The notes under the pieces are model-generated. The model ran no database searches and was not told where the DNA came from. It was given only the letters and a program-made list of their open reading frames with translations. Made by a program: the position numbers and the translations under genes. From IMG/VR virus record IMGVR_UViG_3300042731_009409, positions 44,356-108,355 of that record: a DNA stretch of 64,000 bases, one strand, 5' to 3'. The DNA is from a virus. Of this stretch, positions 36,276 through 60,246 are shown one piece after another. Within the stretch, counting starts at the first letter, position 1, and each line of letters begins with the position of its first letter.

Positions 36276-36364
36276 TTTCTTTTTTTTCCTCTTTGTTTCT
36301 CACGGTATTTCTCCGCGTACCACTATGGAGCGGATGGAGAAGACATCGATCCCAGTCTAGCTTC

Positions 36365-36906: not shown

Positions 36907-37083
36907 CTAAGCGCAAGCGCATTTAAACCCATGACGCTTCAAAGCAGTTTCGGCCGCTTTGATTGATTCAAATAGCATTTTGTCGCCAGTAATTTGGTTA
37001 ATCACCCAGGTTTGTTTTTTGGTTTGGCCGAGCATATTGGAAACTTCCTTTTGCATTATTGTGTAGATCCCTTTTTCAAACAT
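36907..37083 (-). CDS. Hypothetical 58-residue protein
   Basis: ATG at 37083 behind AAGGAGAGG. FEKGIYTIMQKEVSNMLGQ is followed by QTWVINQITGDKMLFESIKA and an end with two Cys (FKCACA). The stop overlaps a 7-bp stem (CTTGCGC/GCGCAAG). Lies directly upstream of the Cys-gene remnant. Unrecognised. Confidence 0.5.
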   Translation of the reverse strand: MFEKGIYTIMQKEVSNMLGQTKKQTWVINQITGDKMLFESIKAAETALKRHGFKCACA

Positions 37084-37114
37084 TTTTCCTCTCCTTGTTT
37101 CTCACGGTATTTCT

Positions 37115-37137
37115 CCGTGTCTCATTTCTGGTACACG
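37115..37137. repeat. 24-bp dispersed element (copy 1, reverse)
   Basis: CCGTGTCTCATTTCTGGTAC then ACG. Same element as 11 other intergenic copies; see consensus in the findings. Confidence 0.7.
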
Positions 37138-37150
37138 TAAGGCTATAAGG

Positions 37151-37387
37151 CTAAGCAACGCTCATTTTACTAAAAGTACAAACAAAGGCTTTCCAGGTCA
37201 GCTTGAAATACTCAAGCTTTAAATACCCGATTACTTCGCGAATATCTTGGGTTTCTTTGCTGTCGCTGGAAAGCATTAAACGAGTAAATTGACCGTTTAG
37301 AGCACAAGTGATCATGTTTTTGGCCATTTCGCTGTCATCCCATTGTTTACGCCATGCAATTGCTTCGTTTATATTTGTTATTTGCAT
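37151..37387 (-). CDS. Hypothetical protein
   Basis: 78 residues, helical. NINEAIAWRKQWDDSEMAKN followed by VIGYLKLEYFKLTWKAFVC. No motif recognised. Transcribed from a class A promoter 50 bases upstream, with the shared AAAGGAAAGT ribosome leader. Confidence 0.5.
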   Translation of the reverse strand: MQITNINEAIAWRKQWDDSEMAKNMITCALNGQFTRLMLSSDSKETQDIREVIGYLKLEYFKLTWKAFVCTFSKMSVA

Positions 37388-37434
37388 TTTACTTTCCTTT
37401 GTTTGTTTCTCTGCTCACATTATTATTATGACAT

Positions 37435-37462
37435 AGTATTTGGCTGGCGCAAGTATTTTATC
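37435..37462 (-). promoter_or_regulatory. Class A repeated promoter
   Basis: Minus strand: TTGCGC, 16 bases, CATAAT. Part of the 105-bp repeat shared with 36,779-36,883. Confidence 0.65.
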
Positions 37463-37473
37463 TAAATAGTCTA

Positions 37474-37872
37474 TTACCTTTTCATCCAATCTTCGTATTC
37501 TGCTTCTGTGAATTGGATGTTTTTTATCATGTATCTTGAATCTTGAATATTTGAACAGTTTGAGCATTTTGAGCAATCTGAGCAGTCTGAGCAGTCAGAA
37601 CAATCTGAACAACCTGAGCATTCTGAACAACCATAACAATCTGAACAATTTGAGCAGTCTGAGCAGTCTGAGCAACCATAACAATCTGAACAATTTGAGC
37701 AGTCTGAGCAGTCTGAGCAACCATAACAATCTGAACAATTTGAGCAGTCTGAGCAGTCTGAGCAATTTGAGCAGTCTGAGCATCCAAAACAATCTGAACA
37801 ACGTATACAGTCTTTGTTCGTTTTTTTCAAAAAACCTGTTCTTCCCAATTTTAATATTTCTTCTTTTTTCAT
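37474..37872 (-). CDS. Cys-x-x repeat protein, member 1
   Basis: 132 residues. The start EEILKLGRTGFLKKTNKDC and end IQFTEAEYEDWMKR are conserved in all four family members here. Between them ~85 residues are repeats of Cys every third position (CSDCSNCSDCYGCSDC), built from a 45-base DNA unit repeated about three times exactly. Around 30 Cys could bind metal clusters or line the inside of a solenoid like pentapeptide repeats. Family not named. Class A promoter. Confidence 0.65.
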   Translation of the reverse strand: MKKEEILKLGRTGFLKKTNKDCIRCSDCFGCSDCSNCSDCSDCSNCSDCYGCSDCSDCSNCSDCYGCSDCSDCSNCSDCYGCSECSGCSDCSDCSDCSDCSKCSNCSNIQDSRYMIKNIQFTEAEYEDWMKR

Positions 37873-37908
37873 TTTACTTTCCTTTGTTTGTTTGTTGCTC
37901 ACAATATT

Positions 37909-37936
37909 ATTATGACACGGTGTTTAGTTGGTGCAA
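37909..37936 (-). promoter_or_regulatory. Class A repeated promoter
   Basis: Minus strand: TTGCAC, 16 bases (CAACTAAACACCGTGT), CATAAT. Drives Cys-x-x repeat member 1. Confidence 0.65.
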
Positions 37937-37939
37937 CTT

Positions 37940-38104
37940 TTATTTGAAAATTTCTGAATTTATGGCCATATCCATAAAAGCGTTCCCGGCGTCAATAAGT
38001 GTTTTCGAACAGTGGTCACAAAATAGTTCGTTATCCTCGGACAACCAGCCATTTTCGCTCAAATCTACTTCTTTGCCACAGATTTCACATTTCAAAGTTT
38101 CCAT
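37940..38104 (-). CDS. 54-residue zinc-knuckle protein
   Basis: METLKCEICGKEVDLSENGW then ELFCDHCSKTLIDAG: two CxxC knuckles 20 residues apart, a minimal zinc-binding module. The C-terminus is a short hydrophobic helix. Class B promoter with LexA-like box. Several such tiny zinc proteins occur in this region; host-factor binding is plausible. Confidence 0.6.
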   Translation of the reverse strand: METLKCEICGKEVDLSENGWLSEDNELFCDHCSKTLIDAGNAFMDMAINSEIFK

Positions 38105-38148
38105 TTTATTTTCCTTTGTTTGTTTGTTTGTTTGTTGCTCACAATATA

Positions 38149-38176
38149 AATATAGCTGGTAAAATACTTCCCGCAA
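38149..38176 (-). promoter_or_regulatory. Class B repeated promoter
   Basis: Minus strand: TTGCGG, 16 bases, TATATT, with the operator at 38179-38190 just upstream. Confidence 0.65.
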
Positions 38177-38178
38177 CT

Positions 38179-38190
38179 GAACATTTGTTC
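38179..38190. promoter_or_regulatory. LexA-like operator, copy 2
   Basis: GAACATTTGTTC, identical to copies at 33937 and 39686. Confidence 0.55.
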
Positions 38191-38208
38191 TAAAAAAGTA
38201 CTTTAAAT

Positions 38209-38244
38209 GCATAATCCTTGCTCTTTGATTTGCAAGGATTATGC
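38209..38244. other. Perfect 13-bp hairpin
   Basis: Arms GCATAATCCTTGC and GCAAGGATTATGC with a 10-base loop. No T-run directly follows on either strand. Confidence 0.65.
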
Positions 38245-38245
38245 C

Positions 38246-38268
38246 CGGTAGGCGCGAAGCGCCTACCG
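38246..38268. other. Perfect 10-bp hairpin with GAA loop
   Basis: Arms CGGTAGGCGC and GCGCCTACCG around GAA, one base from the previous hairpin. The GCGAAGC tip is an unusually stable DNA mini-hairpin. May act with its neighbour as a terminator pair or a single-strand signal. Confidence 0.6.
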
Positions 38269-38299
38269 TATATTCTGTGTTCTTCAAATATGTATTTCT

Positions 38300-38323
38300 C
38301 CGTGGCTCATTTCTGGTACACGG
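38300..38323. repeat. 24-bp dispersed element (copy 2, reverse)
   Basis: CCGTGGCTCATTTCTGGTAC then ACGG, just after the stop of the small helical gene. Confidence 0.7.
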
Positions 38324-38328
38324 GTATT

Positions 38329-38493
38329 TTAGTTTGTTTTAGATTTTTCTGATTTCTGAAATTCTTCCCATTCCTTTAATTCTTTCCGGGCAGATATAAG
38401 CATTTCTTCAATCTTTTCCGGAGTGGTATTTGATTCTAGATACAGATCAATAATCTTGGTTATTCTTTTTCCGTATTCCTCTATATTCAACAT
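38329..38493 (-). CDS. Hypothetical helical protein
   Basis: About 54 residues from the ATG at 38493 (site AAGGAAG). LNIEEYGKRITKIIDLYLES and EKIEEMLISARKELKEWEEF form two amphipathic helices. A copy of the 24-bp element lies in its leader and another after its stop. Unrecognised. Confidence 0.5.
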   Translation of the reverse strand: MLNIEEYGKRITKIIDLYLESNTTPEKIEEMLISARKELKEWEEFQKSEKSKTN

Positions 38494-38506
38494 TTTGCTT
38501 CCTTTC

Positions 38507-38530
38507 CCGTGTACCATAAATGAGCCACGG
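38507..38530. repeat. 24-bp dispersed element (copy 3, forward)
   Basis: CCGTGTACCATAAATGAGCC then ACGG, in the leader of the gene at 38329-38493. Confidence 0.7.
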
Positions 38531-38587
38531 AGTAGTTTGTGGGGTTGGCTTTATATTATCCGAATACTTATTTATTCGGATATTTCC

Positions 38588-38609
38588 CCGTGTCTCATTT
38601 TTGGTACAC
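38588..38609. repeat. 24-bp dispersed element (copy 4, reverse)
   Basis: CCGTGTCTCATTTTTGGTAC then AC. Confidence 0.7.
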
Positions 38610-38681
38610 AGCAACTCCATTTATTATTGTGGCATACAAAAGTACTTGTGCAAACATAAAAGTACTTTTTCAAATATTTTC

Positions 38682-38705
38682 CCGTGTACCATTTTTGGGC
38701 CACGG
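38682..38705. repeat. 24-bp dispersed element (copy 5, forward)
   Basis: CCGTGTACCATTTTTGGGCC then ACGG. Confidence 0.7.
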
Positions 38706-38780
38706 AGATATTCTGGGATAAGTATCCTATTGTCCTATTTGCCTATTTTGGTTTACTTTTAAAAAGGTGAGCCGCCACAA

Positions 38781-38920
38781 GCTCATTTCACCAGAATAAA
38801 CTATTCTCACTCGCTCATTTCACCAGAATAAACTATTCTCACCAACAAGAATCACCATATTCTCACTAACCTGTTTCACCTATCCTCACTAACTTATATC
38901 CTCTACTATCATATTCTTAC
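38781..38920. repeat. Iteron-like tandem repeats
   Basis: GCTCATTTCACC followed by AGAATAAACTATTCTCAC at 38781-38810, exactly repeated at 38813-38842. Degenerate TATTCTCAC, TATCCTCAC and TATTCTTAC follow at 38858, 38881 and 38912. Each full unit has an internal dyad AGAATA-AAC-TATTCT. Confidence 0.65.
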
Positions 38921-39147
38921 CAGTTCATTTTATTATATTCTCTCTCTTCTTGTATATATATTGGGAGGTAAAGAAGTGTTTTTCCTATATATATCCTTTA
39001 TATTGTTCTTATCTCTCTTTATATCCTCTCTCTCTTATATAGGAGAACTTTATTTTTATATTGTGGGGGATTTGGAATATGGTATGTTTTTGAAAGAATA
39101 GATGATTTGAAAGTACTTAATATATCTTCCTTCTCTATATATACTCT

Positions 39148-39169
39148 CGTGTCTCATTTCTGGTACACG
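39148..39169. repeat. 24-bp dispersed element (copy 6, reverse)
   Basis: CGTGTCTCATTTCTGGTACA then CG, inside the AT-rich gene-free tract. Confidence 0.7.
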
Positions 39170-39320
39170 ATGGTTTATTCTTTATATTCTTTTATGGGGG
39201 AAATATTTATATTTTTTATTTTATTTTGTGTTTATTTTGTGTTTATTTTGGAAAAGAATGTAACTAGTTGAAATCATTGAAGAAAATTGTATTTAAGCAA
39301 AATATGTTAAAAATATGGCT

Positions 39321-39345
39321 CCGTGTACCAGAAATGAGACACGAG
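39321..39345. repeat. 24-bp dispersed element (copy 7, forward)
   Basis: CCGTGTACCAGAAATGAGAC then ACGAG. Confidence 0.7.
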
Positions 39346-39390
39346 AGCGTATTTTCAACCGTCTACATTTATGTTTCATCAGCAAGTATT

Positions 39391-39615
39391 TTACCTACTC
39401 ATCCAGTCTTCGTATTCTTCTTGCGTGAATTGGATGTTGTTTATCTTGTATTTTGAATTTTGAATATTTAAGCAATCAAAACACTTATAACAATCTGAGC
39501 AGTCGGAGTTTTCGCAGTCCAAACAATATAAGCAATACGTGCAATTCTTGTTTGGACCGTTCCATTGTCTTAAATATCCTGTTCTTCCTAGTTTTAGTAA
39601 TTCGGTTTTTTCCAT
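39391..39615 (-). CDS. Cys-x-x repeat protein, member 2 (shortest)
   Basis: 74 residues. Family start TELLKLGRTGYLRQWN and end IQFTQEEYEDWMSR enclose only ~25 repeat residues (CTYCLYCLDC, then CSDCYKCFDC). The conserved caps with a variable number of Cys-x-x units show length change by repeat gain or loss. Class B promoter with LexA-like box. Confidence 0.65.
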   Translation of the reverse strand: MEKTELLKLGRTGYLRQWNGPNKNCTYCLYCLDCENSDCSDCYKCFDCLNIQNSKYKINNIQFTQEEYEDWMSR

Positions 39616-39655
39616 TATTGTTTCTTTCTTTTTTTGTTGTGTCGTTCACATTATA

Positions 39656-39683
39656 AATATAGTACTTCAAATACTTTCGACAA
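39656..39683 (-). promoter_or_regulatory. Class B repeated promoter
   Basis: Minus strand: TTGTCG, 16 bases, TATATT, with the operator two bases upstream. Confidence 0.65.
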
Positions 39684-39685
39684 CT

Positions 39686-39697
39686 GAACATTTGTTC
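39686..39697. promoter_or_regulatory. LexA-like operator, copy 3
   Basis: GAACATTTGTTC, identical to copies at 33937 and 38179. Confidence 0.55.
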
Positions 39698-39703
39698 TAT
39701 TTT

Positions 39704-40066
39704 TCAGACAAGCCTTAAAAAAGGGGGATCTTTCTGCGTTTTTTCTGCAGAAGCTTGAGGAATGGAATTTTCAATCGTTCCTGCCAACGAATTGAGGTTG
39801 ATACAATCATAATTGATGTCGATGTAAGTAAATGGAACATCATAGTTTCCACATGCACATGGTTCTGCACGCAAACCGCGTCGATTTTTTCCTGCAAAAG
39901 GCACGATTACTTCTAGTAGACTGTCACAATCCATGCATTTTGCCTTAAATGGTGCAAGATCATATTCCTTGCACCATTTTTCTAGATCGACATTATAGAT
40001 CACCATATGATGAAAACCCAGATCAATATGCTTTCTTTTCCATTTTTGAGTTCTGTTCTTTTTCAT
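39704..40066 (-). CDS. Zinc-ribbon-like protein
   Basis: 120 residues. AKCMDCDSLLEVIVPFAG and AEPCACGNYD give two Cys pairs ~25 residues apart around a beta hairpin. The N-terminus is strongly basic (KKNRTQKWKRKHIDLG). Nucleic-acid binding is plausible. Last gene before the LexA-like box of the next transcript. Confidence 0.5.
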   Translation of the reverse strand: MKKNRTQKWKRKHIDLGFHHMVIYNVDLEKWCKEYDLAPFKAKCMDCDSLLEVIVPFAGKNRRGLRAEPCACGNYDVPFTYIDINYDCINLNSLAGTIENSIPQASAEKTQKDPPFLRLV

Positions 40067-40103
40067 TTTCTTTGCTCAAATATAATCATTTGGTATTATC
40101 TTT

Positions 40104-40316
40104 CTATTTGTATGGATATATCATTTCGCTTAAATTTTTGTCTTTCTTTCGTTGGACATAAAATTTACCACCATTTTCAGTTATTTCAGAAAAATACTTT
40201 TCCAACCCAATTGCATGCCGAATAACCGATGATACAGTTATTTCATTATCCTCGGCTATTTTCTCCAAAATTTTCCAAACCTTTTCTGGCAGAGTAGCTT
40301 CTATTCTCTTTTTCAT
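40104..40316 (-). CDS. Ribbon-helix-helix-type DNA-binding protein, copy 1
   Basis: 70 residues. KKRIEATLPEKVWKILEKIA is the beta strand plus first helix and NEITVSSVIRHAIGLEKYF the second helix of a CopG/MetJ-like fold; a C-terminal extension ends LSEMIYPYK. Nearly identical to the gene at 42577-42789, differing only at the ends. Probably a dimeric repressor, possibly of the repeated promoters. It directly follows a Cys-x-x repeat gene. Confidence 0.65.
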   Translation of the reverse strand: MKKRIEATLPEKVWKILEKIAEDNEITVSSVIRHAIGLEKYFSEITENGGKFYVQRKKDKNLSEMIYPYK

Positions 40317-40318
40317 TT

Positions 40319-40645
40319 TTACCTACTCATCCAGTCTTTATATTCTGTTTCTGTGAATTGGATATTTTTTATCATGAATTTTGAATTTTTAATATTTGAA
40401 CAACCAAAACAATTTGAGCATTTAGAACAATTTAAACAACCAGAACAACCAGAACAACCAGAACAACCAATACAATCTAAACAATCTTGGCATTTAGAAC
40501 AATCTAAACAATCTTGGCATTTAGAACAATCTAAACAATCTTGGCATTCTGAGCAATCAAAACAATCTATGCAACGGTGGCAGTCCTTATTTGTTCTTTT
40601 CAAAAATCCAGTTTTTCCTAATTTTAACAATTCGGTTTTTTCCAT
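40319..40645 (-). CDS. Cys-x-x repeat protein, member 3
   Basis: 108 residues. Start TELLKLGKTGFLKRTNKDC and end IQFTETEYKDWMSR. The repeat tract is ~65 residues (CQDCLDCSKC repeated, then CIGCSGCSGC). Its repeat units differ in sequence from member 1, so copies have evolved separately while keeping Cys every third residue. The start overlaps the neighbouring gene's stop by 22 bases. Confidence 0.65.
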   Translation of the reverse strand: MEKTELLKLGKTGFLKRTNKDCHRCIDCFDCSECQDCLDCSKCQDCLDCSKCQDCLDCIGCSGCSGCSGCLNCSKCSNCFGCSNIKNSKFMIKNIQFTETEYKDWMSR

Positions 40646-40830
40646 TGCTTTTCCACTTTCGTTTCTATCTTTCCATAATATTCTGGAAACTCACTGATAT
40701 GTCTCAATCTGGCTTGATAAATGGTTTCATCATCCTTTTTATAACCTTCCGGAAGAGATGGAATTAAATATACTTCTCCTTCGTCGATATTTTCATTTAC
40801 AACAAATTCAAAGTTAAATGTCTTGTTCAT
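40624..40830 (-). CDS. Hypothetical protein
   Basis: 68 residues. NFEFVVNENIDEGEVYLIPS followed by TIYQARLRHISEFPEYYGK. Acidic start, basic end. No motif recognised. Overlaps both neighbours slightly, in line with a real gene in a compact operon. Confidence 0.45.
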   Translation of the reverse strand: MNKTFNFEFVVNENIDEGEVYLIPSLPEGYKKDDETIYQARLRHISEFPEYYGKIETKVEKQWKKPNC

Positions 40831-41089
40831 GTATCCCGTATCTTTCTTTTATTTTGTTCTTTTGTCCATCAAGGGGCAAATTTATTTCTTTCGGCTTGCC
40901 CCACAGTAATTTCCCGCAATTCCATCTGTCAATCCCAATTGACAATGATACTGGTGTTTCTGGTGGAATAAACTCGGTTGGCATTAAACCATTAAACCAC
41001 TTTATGCACGTGTTTGATTCAATCCATTTCAGAGTTTTTACTAATTTTTCGCGATTTCTACAAAATATTCTAATTTTTTCCATTTTCAT
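40814..41089 (-). CDS. Distant member of the WLEENT family
   Basis: About 91 residues from the ATG at 41089 (41083 also possible). REKLVKTLKWIESNTCIKWF and MPTEFIPPETPVSLSIG follow the same order as the 27357 and 34652 genes (helix, WIESNT, Pro-rich strand). No conserved end. Unknown function. Confidence 0.5.
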   Translation of the reverse strand: MKMEKIRIFCRNREKLVKTLKWIESNTCIKWFNGLMPTEFIPPETPVSLSIGIDRWNCGKLLWGKPKEINLPLDGQKNKIKERYGIHEQDI

Positions 41090-41097
41090 AATATTTA

Positions 41098-41490
41098 TCA
41101 ACCCATTTTTTTATATATTTCTCGTATTCTTTGGACATATTCCTCAAACCCAGGCATTTTTACGCCGTCTTCATCCTGCATTTTTAAAAAAATGCCCCAA
41201 GCTCTTCTACTAACATAATGTGCTTTCATTGCTTCGCGTTTATTTTTGAATGGGCCTAAAGTATGACTTCCACAAATATTGCAGATATATGAAAGGCTTA
41301 TAATGTCCTTTGGTTTGTTTGAATGATCACCACAATCCTGACAGACATAAAAATGCAAGTCTTCCTCATTTTCTGGCCCTAAAATAAAATCGAATTCATT
41401 AAACAATTTGTAGTCTTCTTTATTTTTTGACATTTTTGGTTTTCTTAGTTTATTTTCCGACTGCCCAACCTCTTTTTTCATACGTTCCAT
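41098..41490 (-). CDS. Zinc-ribbon-like protein
   Basis: 130 residues; translation may begin at 41433 instead. YVCQDCGDHSNK and YICNICGSHTLG are two CxxC knuckles ~20 residues apart, a typical ribbon. The rest is charged (KREAMKAHYVSRRAWGIFLK). Neither start has a good ribosome site. Binding partner unknown. Confidence 0.5.
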   Translation of the reverse strand: MERMKKEVGQSENKLRKPKMSKNKEDYKLFNEFDFILGPENEEDLHFYVCQDCGDHSNKPKDIISLSYICNICGSHTLGPFKNKREAMKAHYVSRRAWGIFLKMQDEDGVKMPGFEEYVQRIREIYKKMG

Positions 41491-41644
41491 GTTTATAATG
41501 TACTTTTATGACAATTGGATATATTTGTTCACCTTCTTTTCTTTCGTCAAATACTTTAGAGTACTCTGCATCATCATAAATTTTTCTGCAAGTTAGTTTT
41601 TTATCTTTTTCATATTCTGGTGTGATTTCTATTCTCTTTTTCAT
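41450..41644 (-). CDS. Hypothetical protein, possible chimera with RHH gene start
   Basis: 64 residues. The first residues and leader (MKKRIE, with identical upstream bases through the end of a Cys-x-x repeat gene) match those of the ribbon-helix-helix gene at 40104, but the rest (YEKDKKLTCRKIYDDAEYSK) is unrelated. Suggests replacement of the body of the gene by recombination just after the start codon. Function unknown. Confidence 0.45.
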   Translation of the reverse strand: MKKRIEITPEYEKDKKLTCRKIYDDAEYSKVFDERKEGEQIYPIVIKVHYKHGTYEKRGWAVGK

Positions 41645-41646
41645 TT

Positions 41647-42117
41647 TTACCTACCCATCCAGTTTTCGTATTCTTCTTGCGTAAATTGGATATTATCTAT
41701 CATATACTTTGAATTTTGAATATCAGAACAACCAGCGCAATCAGAACAGCGTGAACACTCTGAACAACTTAAACATTTTTTACAGCCCGAACACTCTAAA
41801 CAACCTAAACACTCTGAACAGTTTGAACAGTCTAAACAGTCTAAACAGTCTAAACAACGTGAGCAGTCTAAACAGTATAAACAGTATAAACAATGTGAGC
41901 AACGCGAACAGTCCGAACAACGTGAACAGTCCGAACAACCAGAGCAAGACGAACAACCAGAACAACCAGAGCAAGACGAACAACTATAACAATGCGAGCA
42001 ATCAGAGCATTCTGAACAATCTAAACAATACAAGCATTTGGAACAATTCTTATTTGAATTGTTCCATTGTCTTAAATATCCTGTTCTTCCTAGTTTTAGT
42101 AATTCGGTTTTTTCCAT
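41647..42117 (-). CDS. Cys-x-x repeat protein, member 4 (longest)
   Basis: About 156 residues from the ATG at 42117. Start TELLKLGRTGYLRQWNNSNK and end IQFTQEEYENWMGR. About 110 residues of Cys-x-x (CSGCSGCSSCSGCSDCSRC, then CLDCLDCLDC), ~38 Cys. The upstream stop shares a base with the ATG (TAATG). Same leader region as member 2. See findings for the family. Confidence 0.65.
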   Translation of the reverse strand: MEKTELLKLGRTGYLRQWNNSNKNCSKCLYCLDCSECSDCSHCYSCSSCSGCSGCSSCSGCSDCSRCSDCSRCSHCLYCLYCLDCSRCLDCLDCLDCSNCSECLGCLECSGCKKCLSCSECSRCSDCAGCSDIQNSKYMIDNIQFTQEEYENWMGR

Positions 42118-42332
42118 TATTGTTTCTTTCTTTTTTTGTACCGGTATCGGATATGAAAAGCCGATGAACAACCCATCACATCACAATTATGCGTTTCATC
42201 GATTGGGTCGCCTAATACTATAATTTCTGTGTCCGTTTCATAACATTCTCTTAGTATACCCTCCGGGAAATTCGACAAGGGGACATGGACAATAATTTTA
42301 TCGTCCCTAAGAATATGTAAAGATGTATTCAT
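42117..42332 (-). CDS. Hypothetical protein
   Basis: About 71 residues from the ATG at 42332 (site AAGGA eight bases ahead; 42338 is an alternative). LHILRDDKIIVHVPLSNFPE and ETDTEIIVLGDPIDETHNCD. Small beta-rich fold, basic end (RYKKRKKQ). Overlaps the Cys-x-x gene start by one base. Unrecognised. Confidence 0.45.
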   Translation of the reverse strand: MNTSLHILRDDKIIVHVPLSNFPEGILRECYETDTEIIVLGDPIDETHNCDVMGCSSAFHIRYRYKKRKKQ

Positions 42333-42345
42333 TGCCATTTCCTTA

Positions 42346-42564
42346 CTAAAACAAAATATCCAGACGTTTATTTTCGAATTCAATTATTTTTTCAACATCT
42401 CCGGTCATCTCGATATAATCTGCAATTTCATTGTATTTTTTAAAATTGCAAGATCTCAAATATTTACAAAACTCAGTTATACAAGCGTTAAATTTGTTTT
42501 TATCAAATTTAAGATATCTTGTTTTCCTCACAAAATTATCTATAGTTTCAATATGTTTAATCAT
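42346..42564 (-). CDS. Hypothetical helical protein
   Basis: 72 residues, all helical. IKHIETIDNFVRKTRYLKFD and YNEIADYIEMTGDVEKIIEF. Two Cys in FNACITEFCKYLRSCNF. No family recognised. Confidence 0.45.
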   Translation of the reverse strand: MIKHIETIDNFVRKTRYLKFDKNKFNACITEFCKYLRSCNFKKYNEIADYIEMTGDVEKIIEFENKRLDILF

Positions 42565-42576
42565 TTATCATTTCCT

Positions 42577-42789
42577 TTATCTATATGGATATATCATTTC
42601 GCTTAAATTTTTGTCTTTCTTTCGTTGGACATAAAATTTACCACCATTTTCAGTTATTTCAGAAAAATACTTTTCCAACCCAATTGCATGCCGAATAACC
42701 GATGATACAGTTATTTCATTATCCTCGGCTATTTTCTCCAAAATTTTCCAAACCTTTTCTGGCAGAGTGAATTCTATTCTCTTTTCCAT
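42577..42789 (-). CDS. Ribbon-helix-helix-type DNA-binding protein, copy 2
   Basis: 70 residues, a near-identical duplicate of the gene at 40104-40316 (changes only in the first ~7 residues and the last). The DNA identity covers almost the full gene, so duplication is recent or is maintained by recombination. Same predicted dimeric DNA-binding fold. Confidence 0.65.
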   Translation of the reverse strand: MEKRIEFTLPEKVWKILEKIAEDNEITVSSVIRHAIGLEKYFSEITENGGKFYVQRKKDKNLSEMIYPYR

Positions 42790-42790
42790 T

Positions 42791-43198
42791 TTACACTACC
42801 GTTCCGGTTGTAATCACCAGATCAAATGAGCCTTTCGGAAGACCTTTTGATACATCAATTTTATTTTTGTTCCACTTTGAAAACCATTCAGTTAATTTTT
42901 TAAATTTTGTTTTAGAGACTGTTTCATCTTCCTCCCACCATTCTTGATAATCCTTTATTTCATCGCAAGATCTTGTTGCGGCTTGCACCAAATACAGATC
43001 TAAAGGCAAATCATCTGTATTAATAATATATTTTTGATTTACGTTTAAAAGACTCAATTCTTCCTTGGTTGGGTCTTTAATTTTAATGTATTCTTGGTTT
43101 ACGCGTTTCAAAACCCTCAATTCCTCTTCGGTTGGTTTCTCAATTTTAAAATATGATGCCACTTCGGGCATTTCGTTCCAAATCAGTAATACATTCAT
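42791..43198 (-). CDS. Hypothetical protein with internal repeat
   Basis: 135 residues. Two related segments, KPTEEELRVLKRVNQEYIK and DPTKEELSLLNVNQKYI, indicate an internal duplication in residues ~20-55. The C-terminal part has DYQEWWEEDETVSK and KLTEWFSKWNKNK. ATGA-coupled upstream. Unrecognised. Confidence 0.45.
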   Translation of the reverse strand: MNVLLIWNEMPEVASYFKIEKPTEEELRVLKRVNQEYIKIKDPTKEELSLLNVNQKYIINTDDLPLDLYLVQAATRSCDEIKDYQEWWEEDETVSKTKFKKLTEWFSKWNKNKIDVSKGLPKGSFDLVITTGTVV

Positions 43199-43632
43199 TT
43201 CTTACACTCCTTTTTTTGTTTCAAATAATCATACGCTTCTGCAAAGCTCTCGGCTCTAAACCTCTCCTGTTTGGCTAAACATTTGCTGCATATGGTTATA
43301 TGTGGGTCTCCATCTTTGCGCGGCCAGGATGCCCCACAATGTCTGCAACAAGTATCTTGTCTTAAAACTACGAGATAACCATCTTTCTCACATTTGTGTA
43401 AAATGTCGCACAAAGAGTCGGAAATCTCTTCGACCGACTTTCCGGTTGCATCAAACCATTCGAATTTTTCCAACCAATCCAAAAATATCGCTTTGATCGT
43501 GTCCCAACTTGCCAATTTTGCACGCTTTTTGTCTTCTGCCAAACAAAGTGGACATTCATCTATATTATCTGTCCACGATATATTTATTGATTTTGGATGA
43601 TTCAGACATTTAGTATAATATTTTTTATTCAT
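43195..43632 (-). CDS. Cys-rich zinc-type protein
   Basis: About 145 residues from the ATG at 43632, which shares a base with the upstream stop (TAATG). Three Cys pairs (ECPLCLAED, DTCCRHCGASWP, ICSKCLAKQ) and one helical block (WDTIKAIFLDWLEKFEWF). The last two pairs form a zinc ribbon. Could bind nucleic acid. Unrecognised. Confidence 0.5.
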   Translation of the reverse strand: MNKKYYTKCLNHPKSINISWTDNIDECPLCLAEDKKRAKLASWDTIKAIFLDWLEKFEWFDATGKSVEEISDSLCDILHKCEKDGYLVVLRQDTCCRHCGASWPRKDGDPHITICSKCLAKQERFRAESFAEAYDYLKQKKECKK

Positions 43633-43907
43633 TATTTTTGGCCTTTTGACAAAAAATATAATATCCAGCATGAAACACCAAAACTCGAAGAATTGTCGCA
43701 TACCATTGCGCATTCTTCGGGGTGAACCCAATCACCATCACTATAATCGTGTGGACACGTGCCAGTATGATCGGCAACAAATTGACAAGCTCTTTTTAAG
43801 GCCTGTTCAAATTCGTTTTCTTCTGAATCTGAACATTCGCAACCAAAACATTTATCGAATTTTACCCTACAAATCGGGCAAATTTGGTTTTTTAGTTTGT
43901 CTTCCAT
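43632..43907 (-). CDS. Cys-rich hypothetical protein
   Basis: About 91 residues from the ATG at 43907 (site GGAAAGGA). QICPICRVKFDKCFGCECSD at the start and further Cys near the end. CxxC pairs suggest zinc binding. HDYSDGDWVHPEECAMVC has two possible acid/His ligands. First gene of the minus transcript that diverges from the plus-strand genes at 44062. Confidence 0.5.
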   Translation of the reverse strand: MEDKLKNQICPICRVKFDKCFGCECSDSEENEFEQALKRACQFVADHTGTCPHDYSDGDWVHPEECAMVCDNSSSFGVSCWILYFLSKGQK

Positions 43908-43986
43908 GTTTTTTTCCTTTCCATTCCATTCCATTCTAAGGTCCCTTAATATTCAGTTTATTGTTTTTTTTTGATTTGAGCAAATC

Positions 43987-44014
43987 ATTTTTTTTGCTTG
44001 CAAGCAAAAAAAAT
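43987..44014. promoter_or_regulatory. 28-bp perfect palindrome in divergent intergenic region
   Basis: A, T8, GCTTGCAAGC, A8, T. It lies between divergently transcribed genes and overlaps the -35 of the plus-strand class A promoter. It could be a shared operator, or a bidirectional terminator. Confidence 0.5.
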
Positions 44015-44025
44015 TATGGCACAAT
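43998..44025 (+). promoter_or_regulatory. Class A repeated promoter, plus strand
   Basis: TTGCAA, 16 bases, CACAAT, followed by AATATTGC as in minus-strand copies. The only class A copy facing right. Upstream of the 44062 gene. Confidence 0.55.
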
Positions 44026-44061
44026 AATATTGCAGATGGGCAAACACAAAAGGAAAATAAA

Positions 44062-44271
44062 ATGCAAAAAGAAGAGCCAAAATCAAAAAAAAGAAAAGTC
44101 AAAATTGAAAAATATACTAAAAACGTCGGCTGGAGAACAAACTCTCTGGTAGGCAATTCGGTTTTGTTTGGTTTCGAAAAAGTAAAAAAAGGAATTGTTT
44201 ACAAAACTGTAGAACGAAAACCATTAGAAGAAGAAGGAGAAAAAAATGTTTTTACAAAAGTTGGCCTATAA
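44062..44271 (+). CDS. Hypothetical basic protein
   Basis: 69 residues. Lysine-rich start (KEEPKSKKRKVKIEKYTK), then VGWRTNSLVGNSVLFGFEKV. AAAAGGAA precedes the ATG. Overlaps the next gene by 26 bases. First of a short plus-strand trio. Unrecognised. Confidence 0.45.
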   Translation: MQKEEPKSKKRKVKIEKYTKNVGWRTNSLVGNSVLFGFEKVKKGIVYKTVERKPLEEEGEKNVFTKVGL

Positions 44272-44440
44272 AACACAAACGGGCGAAATCGACATAAAAA
44301 AATTTGAATTTTTATGTGATATAGAAGGTTTGCCACACAAACCACAAAGATGTGTGGCCGTGGCCACCGAAAAGGATAAAAAAGGAAATATAATTAAGAC
44401 TTATATTTCTACACTAAAAATTAATTTCGGAAGAAGTTAA
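44246..44440 (+). CDS. Hypothetical protein
   Basis: 64 residues. FLCDIEGLPHKPQRCVAVAT, then a basic beta hairpin ending NFGRS. Site AGAAGAAGGAG ten bases upstream. Second of the trio at 44.1-44.7 kb. No family recognised. Confidence 0.45.
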   Translation: MFLQKLAYKTQTGEIDIKKFEFLCDIEGLPHKPQRCVAVATEKDKKGNIIKTYISTLKINFGRS

Positions 44441-44442
44441 CA

Positions 44443-44703
44443 ATGGAAATAGATTTTAACAAACTTTCAGAACAACTGACGGCTGCGATCATAAAAGAAT
44501 CTGAAAAATATACCGGCTTACATGAAAAAATAGTAAATGAAGTTGTAAATGAAGCAATCATGCAACAACGCGGTATTTTTTCCGAACTGTGTGAAAAAAT
44601 ATTGACAACATACACAAGCGAGTGTAGAAAAGTTTTTAAACAAACTGTTAGCGATATTGTGTTGGAATATGCCACTAAAGATCAGGCCGGCCCATCGGCT
44701 TGA
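44443..44703 (+). CDS. Hypothetical helical protein
   Basis: 86 residues, helical. FNKLSEQLTAAIIKESEKYT and IFSELCEKILTTYTSECRKV. Its 3' end overlaps the convergent minus gene by 22 bases, so the two transcripts run into each other. Function unknown. Confidence 0.45.
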   Translation: MEIDFNKLSEQLTAAIIKESEKYTGLHEKIVNEVVNEAIMQQRGIFSELCEKILTTYTSECRKVFKQTVSDIVLEYATKDQAGPSA

Positions 44704-44939
44704 AAAACCAATCTAACCGTATTCAAATCACCTATAAAATAGATACACCCTACATACGGCCCCACAGCCCCATCCTGAAGGATTTTGTAAATATCCGTAC
44801 CAACCCCTACATAATACCGTTTTCGGCCACCAGACCGACAATATTCCAGTTCAACAATGGAATTTTTCGGCAAGTTAAGGATTTGCCGTTTGGATAAGAC
44901 TTTTTTTACAGGTATTTTGCAAATTTCCTCAAAATTCAT
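44682..44939 (-). CDS. Hypothetical protein
   Basis: About 85 residues from the ATG at 44939, which overlaps the upstream stop as ATGA. LSKRQILNLPKNSIVELEYC then KRYYVGVGTDIYKILQDG. Beta-rich. Converges with the plus gene at 44443-44703. Unrecognised. Confidence 0.45.
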   Translation of the reverse strand: MNFEEICKIPVKKVLSKRQILNLPKNSIVELEYCRSGGRKRYYVGVGTDIYKILQDGAVGPYVGCIYFIGDLNTVRLVFQADGPA

Positions 44940-45172
44940 TTTTTGCAACCTCCAACACATTGGCAATTTTTACAACTGTCTTCTTTTTCGTCCAAAAACT
45001 TTTTGAGATCCGGAGATTGCTGAAAATCAAACAATTCACACGCATTTTTCAATTTGTTTACAAATCTACACTTCTTTTTTGCATTAAATGGAATGTCTGA
45101 CTTTTCATTCCGACAACTGCTGAATAAATAACTATAATATCGACAATCACAACACGTTTTTTCACCAATCAT
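44936..45172 (-). CDS. Cys-rich small protein
   Basis: About 78 residues from the ATG at 45172. GEKTCCDCRYYSYLFSSC, then KNACELFDF, then CKNCQCVGGC: nine Cys in 78 residues, typical of small metal-binding proteins. ATGA-coupled to the next gene. A candidate promoter lies at 45226-45254. Confidence 0.5.
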   Translation of the reverse strand: MIGEKTCCDCRYYSYLFSSCRNEKSDIPFNAKKKCRFVNKLKNACELFDFQQSPDLKKFLDEKEDSCKNCQCVGGCKK

Positions 45173-45225
45173 TTTAAAACCCTTTCTAAGGGAAAGTTTA
45201 AACTGTTTTGAAATCCTATGCAAAT

Positions 45226-45254
45226 ATTATTGACATATTAAAAAAAACAAACAA
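45226..45254 (-). promoter_or_regulatory. Class A-like promoter
   Basis: Minus strand: TTGTTT, 17 bases, AATAAT, followed by ATTTGC as in class A copies. Spacer one base longer than the others. Confidence 0.45.
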
Positions 45255-45281
45255 ACTTATATATTGACGAAAGGAAGCAAA

Positions 45282-45620
45282 ATGAAAAACAAAATCTCAA
45301 AAATTTTACAAAAAAACTTCGAAAAAAACATTTCGATTCCAGCAATCGATTCTGGAAATGGTTCGAGCGGATCTTTTTTAATGGAACCCGACATTTATAT
45401 GAATATCGATTTAGTCGATCCAAGAGATTGTGAAAGGGTCGAAATGGACAAAAAACTATTTGTCAAGGTGTTTGAAGATTTATTGATTTCCGGCGAAATG
45501 TCAAAGGATTGGGAACAATGGCAGATTTTAAAAGGGAGTGGAGATAACCCTTACACCATTACATTTTGGGTTAAAGAAATTTTCAAAAACGTTGTTGTGC
45601 ATTATGTACAAAAAATTTAG
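45282..45620 (+). CDS. Hypothetical protein
   Basis: About 112 residues from the ATG at 45282 (site AAAGGAAG). NISIPAIDSGNGSSGSFLME and KDWEQWQILKGSGDNPYTIT. The end (IFKNVVVHYVQKI) is strikingly like residues ~45-60 of the DnaC-like loader at 49015 (IFENIVVRYVQKI), at the DNA level too. Ends four bases inside the convergent exported-protein gene. Confidence 0.45.
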   Translation: MKNKISKILQKNFEKNISIPAIDSGNGSSGSFLMEPDIYMNIDLVDPRDCERVEMDKKLFVKVFEDLLISGEMSKDWEQWQILKGSGDNPYTITFWVKEIFKNVVVHYVQKI

Positions 45621-45844
45621 GAGTCTGTATCTTCGTCGCAATCCGGGACGCCATCGCCCCTTCCGTGTTCGTTTGTGTCTCCATAATCAGTAGCATCCCA
45701 ATCGTCAGTATCGGCTATTCCGTCGCCGTCCATATCTCCGTTGTCCTCACACTGTTCGGCTTTGGCATTTCCAGCGCAGATTGTAATTATAAACGCAACT
45801 GCAAACAAAATTATCGAAATTAGTACAACTTTAAAATTTTTCAT
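45617..45844 (-). CDS. Exported Asp-rich protein, thrombospondin-type-3-like
   Basis: 75 residues. A signal peptide (KVVLISIILFAVAFIITICA, likely cut near AKA-EQ) precedes ~45 residues of Asp/Gly repeats (DNGDMDGDGIADTDDWD, then GDGVPDCDEDTD), the calcium-binding pattern of thrombospondin type 3 or dockerin loops. Two Cys may pair. Acts outside the cytoplasm, probably calcium dependent. Class A-type promoter at 45883. Role unknown. Confidence 0.6.
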   Translation of the reverse strand: MKNFKVVLISIILFAVAFIITICAGNAKAEQCEDNGDMDGDGIADTDDWDATDYGDTNEHGRGDGVPDCDEDTDS

Positions 45845-45882
45845 TTTTTTTCCTTTGTTTGTGTTTTTCTGTTCATAATATT

Positions 45883-45910
45883 ATTGTGACATTATTTTTT
45901 TTGTTTTCAA
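45883..45910 (-). promoter_or_regulatory. Class A repeated promoter
   Basis: Minus strand: TTGAAA, 16 bases, CACAAT, then AATATTATGAACAG as in the copy at 32961. Confidence 0.6.
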
Positions 45911-45938
45911 ACAAAAAACTTGTCTTTTCTAAAAAAAC

Positions 45939-45967
45939 TTGTCTTTTCTAAAAAAATGCAATATATT
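45939..45967 (+). promoter_or_regulatory. Promoter directly abutting the UvsW-like start
   Basis: TTGTCT, 17 bases, TATATT. The TTGTCTTTTCTAAAAAAA unit is tandemly repeated (first copy at 45920). The expected RNA start would fall only a few bases before the ATG at 45977, so the message may be almost leaderless. Confidence 0.5.
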
Positions 45968-45976
45968 TGCATAGTT

Positions 45977-47416
45977 ATGAAAAAAATAAAAATAGAAATA
46001 GAAAATTGTTATACAAAAATTTTTGGTATAAACAGAGAAACAGTGCGAAAATTATCGGATATAACATCGTACATTTTAAAAGGTTCGTGGTTTTCAAAAT
46101 CGTATCAAAAGGGGAATTGGAGCGGAAAGGAAAAATTGCTCGAAATGGTAAAAACCGGCGGTTACAGGTTTCCAACCGGCCTTTTATACGATGTTACAAA
46201 ATATTTAGAAAAACAAAAAATCCAATATAAAATAATAGACAAGAGGCGAAAACCAAAACACAAAGATTTTGTTCTTTATTCATGGAATCAAAAAATAAAG
46301 CTCAGAAATTATCAAAATAAAGCTTTCGAAAAAATATCAAAAAAAGATTTGTATTTCGGCAATGGAATTTTAAAAATGCCAATCCGATCTGGAAAAACAA
46401 AAACAATTGCCTGGATAATAGGGTTTTTGTCTGTAAGGACATTGTTTATCGTACCATCAAAATCCTTATTGTACCAAACCCAAAAAAGTCTAGAAGAATC
46501 TCTATTGTGCAAGGTTGGTTTGATCGGTGATGGAAAGTGGGAAGAACAAAATATAACAGTTGCCACAGCCCAGACTTTATCTAAATCCAGAATGTCCAAT
46601 GATCCGAAGTGGAAAAAACTCATAAAGCGATATTTTTGTATAATTTTTGATGAAGCACACCATTTGACAGCACCAACGTGGCATAAAACAATGATGGAGT
46701 TTGACGCTCCATATAAACTCGGTTTAAGTGCCACTGCATTCCCGGAAATGGATGGAAGCCAGTGGGATAAAGGATCGATATGGCTCAAGGCGTGTTGTGG
46801 CAGAATCCGTGTAAGTGTCGATACAAGTGATTTGATTGAACAAGGGTATCTGACAAAACCAATCGTAAAACTTTATAAGATAGACAAGCCTGATTTAAGC
46901 GGCAAAGGTTGGTCTCAAAGCCTGAGAAACAAGGCAATTTACGAAAATAAAATACGAAACAAAAAAATAACGGAAGTAGCAAAAAAATATACAAAAAAAG
47001 GAAAACTCGTCCTAGTTGTAACAAATCGACTCAACCAAGTTAAAATATTGTCTGAAATGTTTGATAAAGCTGGAATAAATCACGAAACAATGACAAGCGC
47101 AGACTCGACTGAGTCGAGAGAAAACAAAGTTTCGGATTTCGTAAATCACAAAACAGACGCATTGATTGGTACGATTTTATCTGAAGGCGTTGATATACCT
47201 GAAATTGATGTTGTGATAAATGCAGAAGGCGGAACCGATATAAAATCAACTGTCCAAAAGATGAGAAATTTAACAGTTTGCGATGGAAAAAAGAATGCAA
47301 TTTTTGTTGACTTTATTGATTTGACCAACAAATATTTCGCAAACCATTCAAAATCACGCCTATCCGTATATAAATCTGAAAGAGCGTTTAGGGTAAAACT
47401 CGTGGCCCAAAAATGA
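45977..47416 (+). CDS. uvsW: SF2 helicase, UvsW-like
   Basis: About 479 residues from the ATG at 45977. A ~110-residue N-terminal domain precedes KLRNYQNKAFEKI (Q motif), MPIRSGKTKT near 133 (Walker A), CIIFDEAHHLTAP near 224 (DEAH), LGLSATAF (motif III), LVLVVTNRLNQVKIL (IV), ALIGTILSEGVDIPE (V) and VQKMRN (VI region). Size and order match T4 UvsW and other phage recombination helicases that unwind D-loops and R-loops. Its stop codon lies inside a copy of the 24-bp element. Confidence 0.85.
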   Translation: MKKIKIEIENCYTKIFGINRETVRKLSDITSYILKGSWFSKSYQKGNWSGKEKLLEMVKTGGYRFPTGLLYDVTKYLEKQKIQYKIIDKRRKPKHKDFVLYSWNQKIKLRNYQNKAFEKISKKDLYFGNGILKMPIRSGKTKTIAWIIGFLSVRTLFIVPSKSLLYQTQKSLEESLLCKVGLIGDGKWEEQNITVATAQTLSKSRMSNDPKWKKLIKRYFCIIFDEAHHLTAPTWHKTMMEFDAPYKLGLSATAFPEMDGSQWDKGSIWLKACCGRIRVSVDTSDLIEQGYLTKPIVKLYKIDKPDLSGKGWSQSLRNKAIYENKIRNKKITEVAKKYTKKGKLVLVVTNRLNQVKILSEMFDKAGINHETMTSADSTESRENKVSDFVNHKTDALIGTILSEGVDIPEIDVVINAEGGTDIKSTVQKMRNLTVCDGKKNAIFVDFIDLTNKYFANHSKSRLSVYKSERAFRVKLVAQK

Positions 47417-47424
47417 TACACGAG
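47399..47424. repeat. 24-bp dispersed element (copy 8, divergent)
   Basis: CTCGTGGCCCAAAAATGATA then CACGAG. Overlaps and supplies the UvsW-like stop codon. Confidence 0.6.
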
Positions 47425-47430
47425 ACTTCT

Positions 47431-47454
47431 CCGTGTACCAAAAATGAGCCACAC
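47431..47454. repeat. 24-bp dispersed element (copy 9, forward)
   Basis: CCGTGTACCAAAAATGAGCC then ACAC, touching the next copy. Confidence 0.7.
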
Positions 47455-47476
47455 GTGTACCAAAAATGAGCCACGG
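47454..47476. repeat. 24-bp dispersed element (copy 10, forward)
   Basis: CGTGTACCAAAAATGAGCCA then CGG, in tandem with copy 9. Confidence 0.7.
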
Positions 47477-47485
47477 GAGAAAATG

Positions 47486-47509
47486 CCGTGTACCAGAAAT
47501 GAGCCACGG
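47486..47509. repeat. 24-bp dispersed element (copy 11, forward)
   Basis: CCGTGTACCAGAAATGAGCC then ACGG, ~90 bases ahead of the winged-helix gene. Confidence 0.7.
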
Positions 47510-47598
47510 GGAAATTTAAGCTTGTATAAGAATCTAAAAACATGTTAAAACCCTTATATTGGCTATGCATTTTTTTAATTTACAAAACAAAATAAAAA

Positions 47599-47898
47599 AT
47601 GATTAAAAAAGTAGGGATAAAGACAAAAACAGTTAGTTTGCCGGAAGCTTATAGCGAATTATCGCCGAATGTTTTTGCTGCTTTTGTGGTACTTTCTACA
47701 ATTCAAAAAAAGACGTACAAAAGAAACAAAATTCCTAAACTTTTGGGCAAAACAAGATCAAGTTGTTCCAGATTTCTGGAACAGTTGGTTGCATTAAAAT
47801 ACATTAAAATAAAAAATAAAGGAATTGGAAAACCATCAGTAATTTATTTTCTAAAACGCTTAGAGGTAGAAAAAGACTCAAGGTTTGTGATCTCATGA
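47599..47898 (+). CDS. Winged-helix transcription regulator
   Basis: 99 residues. VFAAFVVLSTIQKKTYKRN, IPKLLGKTRSSCSRFLEQLV and LKYIKIKNKGIGKPSVIYFL read as helix, recognition helix, and wing of a MarR/ArsR-like winged helix. It lies inside the densest cluster of 24-bp elements and is followed by a strong terminator, so it is a monocistronic regulator. It may bind the elements. That is inference from position. Confidence 0.6.
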   Translation: MIKKVGIKTKTVSLPEAYSELSPNVFAAFVVLSTIQKKTYKRNKIPKLLGKTRSSCSRFLEQLVALKYIKIKNKGIGKPSVIYFLKRLEVEKDSRFVIS

Positions 47899-47921
47899 AG
47901 TATTTTAAAAGACCGAAGGTC

Positions 47922-47958
47922 AAGAATGATTATTCTTTTTTAAAGAATAATCATTCTT
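47922..47958 (+). terminator. Terminator after winged-helix gene
   Basis: Perfect 16-bp stem AAGAATGATTATTCTT / AAGAATAATCATTCTT with loop TTTTA, then TTC-rich sequence, 24 bases after the regulator's stop. Confidence 0.65.
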
Positions 47959-48041
47959 TTCTATATTCTGGGAGCAGTATTTCTTTTTTAAAAAACAGAA
48001 AAACAAAAAAATTTAAAAAAATGCACAGGAAGTGGATTTCT

Positions 48042-48065
48042 CCGTGTACCAAAAATGAGCCACGG
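48042..48065. repeat. 24-bp dispersed element (copy 12, forward)
   Basis: CCGTGTACCAAAAATGAGCC then ACGG, at the head of the structured region before the replication genes. Confidence 0.7.
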
Positions 48066-48149
48066 GGTTTTTCTTTCTTTCTTTTTTTCTTTCTTTCTTT
48101 AATAGCTTGTTATATAGCTTATTATATAACTTATTATATAACAGGTGAC

Positions 48150-48203
48150 AAACTTTATATATATATGACTCAGCTAAAGCTTCGTCATATATATATAAAG
48201 TTT
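48150..48203. other. Long hairpin, 20-bp perfect stem
   Basis: Arms AAACTTTATATATATATGAC and GTCATATATATATAAAGTTT with a 14-base loop that itself contains AGCT-AAA-GCT. No T-run follows. Candidate structured RNA or origin element. Confidence 0.6.
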
Positions 48204-48347
48204 CACTTCGTGATATTTTATATTATACACTTATTTATCTTATCTGCTCTATACAAACTAATATACTTAGACATATGTTCTATGTTATATGTCAATTACG
48301 ATTTGAATCTAATCTAAATCGTATGACTAGAAAAGGATTTCGGAAAG

Positions 48348-49037
48348 ATGCTCGTTGAAGAGATAAAAAAGATGAAAAATGGTGAAAGGATGAACCCAAA
48401 GAAAATTTTGAAGAGGGTTAAAGCAGAAAAGAAGAAAATTGATTGGGGAAAGTTCCCGGAACCTGGAATATTTTTGACCAGAAATGAAAAAATGAATAAA
48501 GATCTTTCCCGGAAAGGAAAGGTAAAAAAAATTGCTCTTGATAAGCTTGGGAAAAAATTTGGCGAATGCTATGTGCTTTACAGGAATGCTGCTGAAATAG
48601 AATTGGGAAGAAAAAAGGTTTTTATCATAACCGTCAAAAATGAAAAATATTGTGTTGGTGGTGGGAGCTTTTGTTTTGCCAATATGTTTAACCCATTTTT
48701 GTTGTTTCGATATTGGCACGAAATGAAAGATCATTTTTTTGATTTCACGTTTCCACCACTTTCTTTTATTGCAAGTTCTTATGCTCTGGAAACTGCGTAC
48801 AACAATGTTTCTCAAATAGAGTTTGGCAATTCTTATTCCAGCATTTGTTGTGGTCTGTCTAAAATAAAAACAATTTTGAAAAAAAACAATTTTGACATCC
48901 CGGATGATGACAGGTTTGTTTTGCAGATAAAACAAACGGCAGAATTTATTAAAAGCGGTAGAAAAATGTTTGTGACAGAAAATATTAAAAGAATGGTTGA
49001 TTGTTTGGTGGAATATGAGAACAGAAAAAGAAGTTGA
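48348..49037 (+). CDS. Unknown protein, first gene of replication operon
   Basis: 229 residues, unrecognised. Basic helical start (EEIKKMKNGERMNPKKILKR), beta-rich middle (GECYVLYRNAAEIELGRKKV, CVGGGSFCFANMF), and a helical C-terminus (LQIKQTAEFIKSGRKMFV). Three Cys in the middle. The DnaC-like loader overlaps its end by 23 bases. An origin- or primosome-related role is suggested only by position. Confidence 0.5.
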   Translation: MLVEEIKKMKNGERMNPKKILKRVKAEKKKIDWGKFPEPGIFLTRNEKMNKDLSRKGKVKKIALDKLGKKFGECYVLYRNAAEIELGRKKVFIITVKNEKYCVGGGSFCFANMFNPFLLFRYWHEMKDHFFDFTFPPLSFIASSYALETAYNNVSQIEFGNSYSSICCGLSKIKTILKKNNFDIPDDDRFVLQIKQTAEFIKSGRKMFVTENIKRMVDCLVEYENRKRS

Positions 49038-58999: not shown

Positions 59000-60237
<1,238 letters not shown>

Positions 60238-60246
60238 ATAAAAGAT

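Follow-up and report, generated by a model that had tools for sequence, protein, structure and literature searches.

Twelve two-armed boxes in a very divergent phage are candidate binding sites of a split replication initiator

RESULTS

The stretch of DNA analysed here (the window, 64,000 nucleotides) comprises bases 44356-108355 of a 108,355-bp virus record, IMGVR_UViG_3300042731_009409, which serves as G000 in the genome comparisons below. It carries twelve copies of a two-armed box, in groups at 37.1-39.3 kb and 47.4-48.1 kb, about 8 kb apart (Table 1). Boxes of the left group sit among small minus-strand genes, in or adjoining the largest stretch of the record free of open reading frames (ORFs); two lie within this stretch and three more immediately to its left. 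The right group stands at the head of a set of replication genes, in which the DnaB-like helicase gene is followed by those for primase and DNA polymerase III (PolIII) alpha.

Table 1. Boxes and neighbouring features, in window coordinates
Feature	Position	Strand	Remarks
Box	37115-37138	-	Centre AGAAAT; 14 bp past stop codon, 32 bp before ATG of gene 36907-37083 (-)
Box	38300-38323	-	Centre AGAAAT; about 6 bp past stop of gene 38329-38493 (-)
Box	38507-38530	+	Centre ATAAAT; 14 bp ahead of ATG at 38493 (-), immediately upstream of its ribosome-binding site
Box	38588-38611	-	Centre AAAAAT
Box	38682-38705	+	Centre ATTTTT; GGG in half-site B
Largest ORF-free stretch of the record	38763-39703 (G000 83118-84058)		No ATG ORF of at least 75 aa
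Box	39147-39170	-	Centre AGAAAT; inside the ORF-free stretch
Box	39321-39344	+	Centre AGAAAT; inside the ORF-free stretch
UvsW-like helicase gene	45920-47416	+	
Box	47400-47423	-	Centre ATTTTT; covers uvsW stop codon
Box	47431-47454	+	Centre AAAAAT; array upstream of winged-helix gene
Box	47453-47476	+	Centre AAAAAT; 22 bp from previous, 2 bp shared
Box	47486-47509	+	Centre AGAAAT; 33 bp from previous
Winged-helix protein, 99 aa	47599-47898	+	Proposed DNA-binding half of initiator
Box	48042-48065	+	Centre AAAAAT; between winged-helix and C-domain genes
C-domain protein, 229 aa	48348-49037	+	Homologue of the C-terminal portion of relatives' fused initiators
DnaC/IstB-like helicase loader	48997-49692	+	
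DnaB-like replicative helicase	49823-51169	+	

The box and its two arms

The consensus is CGTGTACC, 6 bp and GAGMCACG. An earlier note on this DNA had described a twelve-copy element in both orientations; all twelve places do carry the box, on plus and minus strands, and nine of the start coordinates it gave are exact, the other three being off by one (now 39147, 47400 and 47453). With up to three mismatches allowed, the 22-mer CGTGTACCADAAATGAGNCACG has 11 matches in the window versus 0 in 100 dinucleotide shuffles; the twelfth copy, at 38682, has four mismatches to it. The remaining 44 kb of the record, its left part, contain no box at up to six mismatches. The note's description of the copies as intergenic, save the one at the uvsW stop codon, holds on the gene map used here, with the qualification that box 48042 falls inside a mechanical ORF (47895-48317), which we take as non-coding. 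A degenerate thirteenth box may exist near 36306-36334, in a leader duplicated from 37094-37136.

The exact pattern gave 0 matches in IMG/VR and two in 84,980 GTDB genomes, each a single copy. We took these two as chance occurrences, because they lie in unrelated metagenome-assembled genomes and have no further copies nearby. No paper describing the box sequence was found. The note's remark that it knew of no named family with this sequence is correct for the letters, in databases and literature, but initiator boxes at two places, the kind of thing that the element appears to be, are known.

Read by half-sites, all twelve boxes are CGTGTAYC (in one copy TGTGTACC), 6 bp and GRGMCACG, or close variants. 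Half-site A (CGTGTACC) and half-site B (CGTGKCTC when read inward) are related, not identical. The centres in the window are AGAAAT (five), AAAAAT (four), ATTTTT (two, 38682 and 47400) and ATAAAT (one).

One close relative, the 23-kb contig G018 (L191), is syntenic with the record, with a terminase 85% identical and DNA ∼72% identical across the structural region. Its early region has eight boxes at 62-2377 (the scan listed 11 rows at these 8 places, and the places were used), with the same arms as in the window and the centres AGATCT (four), AGATTT (two), ATATTT (one) and GGATCT (one). The contig lacks initiator genes. Across the 20 boxes of the two genomes, neither the arms nor the 6-bp distance between them changes, whereas the centre does. 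Because G018 keeps the arms and replaces the centre, the sequences point to the arms as the constant part of the box and to the fixed 6-bp centre as a spacer. Within this genome the centre is uniform, but the earlier proposal of the centre as the specific core is not supported by this comparison. In all 20 boxes the two half-sites are unlike each other, which suggests asymmetric reading of the box.

The four boxes of the right array, 47400, 47431, 47453 and 47486, are spaced 31, 22 and 33 bp apart. These spacings, like those of ∼21 bp in the relatives G002, G008 and G009 described below, are near whole helical turns. AT content is 80% at 47510-47610 and 78% at 48066-48240, just after box 48042.

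A proposed split initiator in a conserved gene order

A near-DNA search of GenBank phages found no relative, two fused initiators of relatives (see below) had no match in GenBank phages, and single-protein searches with the winged-helix protein, the C-domain protein or PolIII returned no relatives. Alignments of PolIII, the loader and terminase did retrieve them, those found with PolIII and the loader being distant kin in IMG/VR. In this distant kin, terminase and portal are 50-66% identical, and the replication genes keep the same order: uvsW, winged-helix, C-domain, DnaC-like loader, DnaB.

To compare this region, we used 15 loci, i.e. the window and 14 of the 21 loci from the loader-alignment search. 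Seven loci were omitted: L118, which does not differ from L117 over 14,672 bases; L120, unaligned but with the ORF sizes of L121; L124 and L134, which lack the uvsW side; and the partial L135-L137. A winged-helix profile finds a member at the same place in all 15 loci, and four members outside the seed profile match it at E 1e-26 to 1e-32. In 8 of the 15 loci, the winged-helix and C-domain parts form one protein of about 470-620 aa (552 aa in G001, 621 aa in G003); in the other seven, the window included, they are split. The two proteins of the window correspond to the two ends of the fused protein. In G003 (L114), the PolIII alpha match (62706-67541) comes in two pieces ∼1 kb apart, perhaps because of an intron, intein or frameshift, and the RecA match (59297-60256) also splits.

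The 99-aa protein was modelled as a winged helix, with a predicted local distance difference test score (pLDDT) of 79. The solved folds nearest to the model are MarR-like regulators and the plasmid RepA initiators 4pql, 5kbj and 4pt7, a range that is too general to decide between such functions. Its PHROG matches are weak, and all are replication proteins: 678 (O-like, 0.023), 186 (DnaD-like, 0.029), 270 (0.049) and 428 (0.091). Across the loci, phrog_186 (DnaD-like loader) matches 9 of the 15 winged-helix members. By eye, the four phages with similar recognition helices (helix 3 reading YS[QR]R..-E.-ELERKG in G002, G008, G009 and G010) have a TTACC-type box in common. The C-domain was modelled as helical (pLDDT 85). 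It has no Pfam match above noise and no fold match above Z 3.5 among 243 aligned chains, a result that excludes nothing.

Repeat arrays and second clusters in relatives

For each locus, the array score was taken from the best-scoring set of three direct 14-mers in the uvsW-loader interval and compared with 25 shuffles. As a control, the score in lambda peaks at the annotated iterons, with a value of 34. Eight of the 15 loci have an array above all 25 shuffles (the window, L122, L123, L126, L127, L128, L129 and L132). Six of these eight arrays fall inside the initiator or winged-helix gene; arrays within coding sequence are those of G002 (CGTCACACACTTGC, 21 bp apart), G003 (CCTAGATCCTTAACC, 15 bp), G007, G008, G009 and L122. 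L123 resembles the window in having its scored array ahead of the winged-helix gene.

Nine records were read whole (G000-G003 and G007-G011), and four of them (G000, G002, G008 and G010) have a second, distant cluster of their own box. Further copies lie at 6.0-8.7 kb in G002 and at 46.6-48.5 kb in G008. G010 has many TAACYCTATTACCCTA at 92.4-92.9 kb and related TTACC boxes between the winged-helix and C-domain genes; its two-cluster status was judged by eye only and fails the automatic test. That test passes three of the nine initiator regions, versus 9 of 501 random regions; these nine hits are, by our reading, low-complexity, simple or coding repeats. The ORF-free gap touched by the second cluster is the largest of its record in G000 and G002 and ranks second in G010, on a gap list made without G008. 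In G011, a plain scan for CGAATAGTCG finds it exactly twice, in each case between the winged-helix gene and that for the C-domain protein. The box motif of the window itself was absent from six further records.

Other repeats were seen in these genomes. Those of G001 (L104, 88-96 kb) and G003 (L113, 46-51 kb) were considered as box counterparts and set aside, since we read them as sigma70-like promoter modules; they precede small genes, and their sequences differ between the two phages. In G002 (L106-L110), AAAACGTTTTTC is dispersed, with 10 occurrences. The window has, by eye, a dyad, ATCCGAATA-CTTAT-TTATTCGGAT, at 38561-38590, between boxes 38507 and 38588. The interval 37454-42118 contains a family of small minus-strand ORFs, related to one another and carrying 9-base repeats, which perhaps encode repeat-rich small proteins. 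Tandem 15-base coding repeats (AGATCTGCTCCTGT and kin) at ∼22.8-24.0 kb of the window and at 13.9-14.4 kb of G000 possibly belong to pentapeptide-repeat proteins.

DISCUSSION

The explanation we favour, and hold to be likely with a good deal of room for doubt, is that the boxes are binding sites of the phage's own split, lambda-O/SPP1-G38P-like replication initiator and mark one or two origins. The earlier note had pointed to a sequence-specific DNA ligand, had named the winged-helix protein as candidate binder and had linked the boxes to an origin-like region. The comparative evidence supports each of these suggestions and adds the class of the initiator; from it we infer the winged-helix protein as the reader, either cluster as an origin and any transcriptional role.

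The initiator would consist of the winged-helix protein, which would bind DNA, and the C-domain protein. The box would offer it two related but different half-sites, 6 bp apart across an A/T-rich spacer. Several initiator units would bind the phased array (47400-47509) and the copy at 48042, and the bound initiator would open neighbouring AT-rich DNA, which would be handed to the DnaC-like loader and DnaB encoded alongside. The left cluster would be a second initiator-bound region, either a second origin or a fork barrier of the kind proposed for SPP1 oriR. Probably the boxes are also operators of small early genes, and the outlying left copies, which lie between stop codons and ribosome-binding sites, would then let the initiator control small genes.

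Several observations weigh against a replication initiator. The winged helix is matched by MarR-type regulators roughly as closely as by initiators, and comparing profiles with lambda O gives no significant result (hhalign probability 2%, E 0.024). The array of the window lies upstream of the winged-helix gene rather than within it, with one box between the initiator genes. In the uvsW-loader interval, no array reaches significance in seven of the 15 loci, and five of the nine whole records show no second cluster by the methods used. The half-sites are never identical, and a simple symmetric dimer would not predict this. We dropped AT-richness as origin evidence, as it is not exceptional in this genome: that of the right array is ordinary, being reached by 26% of random 900-bp segments (10% for the left). 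GC skew was dropped as well because it is confounded with gene direction. Finally, the boxes of G018 lie in gaps between small early genes and not in one long gap, a placement that favours an operator role, beside or instead of an origin role.

Were the boxes operators only, a MarR-like winged-helix protein would repress itself and small early genes, and replication would start elsewhere. In both the window and G018, small genes have boxes just past stops and ahead of ribosome-binding sites, which would suit this, as would the four boxes upstream of the winged-helix gene and the MarR-type folds among the best matches of its product. However, eight of the 15 loci have the winged helix as the N-terminus of a much larger protein, whose C-part adjoins the helicase loader; six loci have arrays within that gene, where its own operator would be badly placed; and the weak family matches are replication proteins. 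We consider this explanation unlikely, while giving it real weight. Far less probable is a set of L5-type stoperators, at which an immunity repressor halts RNA polymerase genome-wide. Like these, the window sites are asymmetric, intergenic and dispersed, and 8 of the 12 point with transcription. Yet orientation is mixed (5 of 8 with transcription in G018, mixed also in G002 and G008) and follows no rule, and the boxes form two clusters rather than a genome-wide set. Moreover, L5-type sites are, according to the passages cited, 13-mers whose reversal abolishes repression (PMC9283540), unlike the longer, two-armed and freely oriented boxes of the window.

Two further alternatives seem more improbable still. 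The boxes could act as RNA hairpins in leaders or trailers of early mRNAs, either protein-bound or as processing signals; the 5-bp ends can pair, and copies 39147, 39321 and 38682 are among those that fold better than shuffles. Against this, the check for co-variation that the earlier note had proposed found none: pairing is 81.8%, versus 83.7% with randomly dealt partners, and two-sided changes occupy 2 of the 66 cells. Of ten copies folded, three have z above -1 (38507, 47431 and 47486, -0.27 to -0.66) and one about -1 (48042, -1.1), boxes lie on both strands within one untranscribed-looking gap, and there is no Rfam match. The least credible in our estimation is that the boxes belong to a mobile element or are sites of recombination, as IS21-like end repeats or dif/lox-like sites would be. 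Two arms around an asymmetric 6-bp spacer, the mixed orientation and the nearby IstB-like ATPase would be in keeping with it. But the IstB-like protein is a DnaC-type loader found in the replication operon of every relative, the proteins scanned (not every ORF was) include no transposase or recombinase, and the syntenic G018 keeps the arms, with a different spacer, at similar spacing.

If the boxes are indeed read by the split initiator, they are likely the replication control points of a phage family without close kin in a collection of 50,697 phage records, and an unexplained repeat becomes a testable pair of initiator and box. The relatives, with fused or split initiators and different boxes, would amount to a natural experiment on how initiator and site change together and on the purpose of the second cluster, for which a second origin, a fork barrier and a regulatory hub are candidates. 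More tentatively, and with doubt outweighing confidence, we can picture a large, as yet undescribed family of phages in which one winged-helix initiator, split or fused, reads a private box that marks a gene-proximal origin and a distant origin or fork barrier and doubles as early-gene operator. Reader and boxes would be re-tuned together in each lineage, yielding mutually orthogonal pairs on a conserved gene frame.

Comparison with known systems

Phage SPP1 offers a parallel. As described in the cited passages of two papers (PMC6316719, PMC3485210), one set of gp38 boxes is at oriL, which gene 38 itself contains, and another at oriR, 12-13 kb from there and within a long intergenic region; gp39 is the loader and gp40 the helicase. 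Fork stalling has been proposed as the function of gp38 at oriR. The window likewise has two distant clusters of one box, ∼8 kb apart, as do G002, G008 and G010. One of the clusters is in a long intergenic region (also in G002 and G010; G018 differs), and genes for a loader and a DnaB-like helicase follow. In contrast to SPP1, the putative initiator of the window is split into two genes, its cluster is not inside the initiator gene (as it is in G002, G003, G007, G008 and G009), and outlying boxes stand at the leaders of small genes.

Lambda O binds four iterons within its own gene, according to the passage cited (PMC7466680), and the ori-lambda iteron in the lambda record, ATCCCTC-AAAA-CGAGGGA, is a semi-palindrome with an A-tract centre. 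Shared with lambda are phased semi-palindromic boxes with such a centre, a winged-helix-like N-terminus of the initiator and a loader gene downstream. The array within the initiator gene recurs in several relatives and not in the window. The 80% AT stretch at 47510-47610, beside the right array, may correspond to the AT-rich region that is unwound next to the lambda iterons, though such AT content is common in this genome. In the window, the loader is DnaC/IstB-like and not P, there is a second distant cluster, and O has no significant match.

Iterons of RepA_N plasmid and satellite initiators (pSK41, pTZ2162, PLE RepA) are semi-palindromes, in which inverted repeats converge on a poly-A tract (in the passages cited from PMC7145576). 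Of the 12 window boxes, 10 share this form, and those of G018 do not. RepA structures are also among the nearest folds of the winged-helix model. The differences are that Pfam matches up to E 0.1 in 15 members include no RepA_N domain (PF06970), that phage replisome genes lie alongside and that there are two clusters. Because its array lies outside the initiator gene and the profile match to lambda O is not significant, we do not class the window system as a member of any of these groups; by analogy, it would work like the SPP1, lambda O and RepA_N systems.

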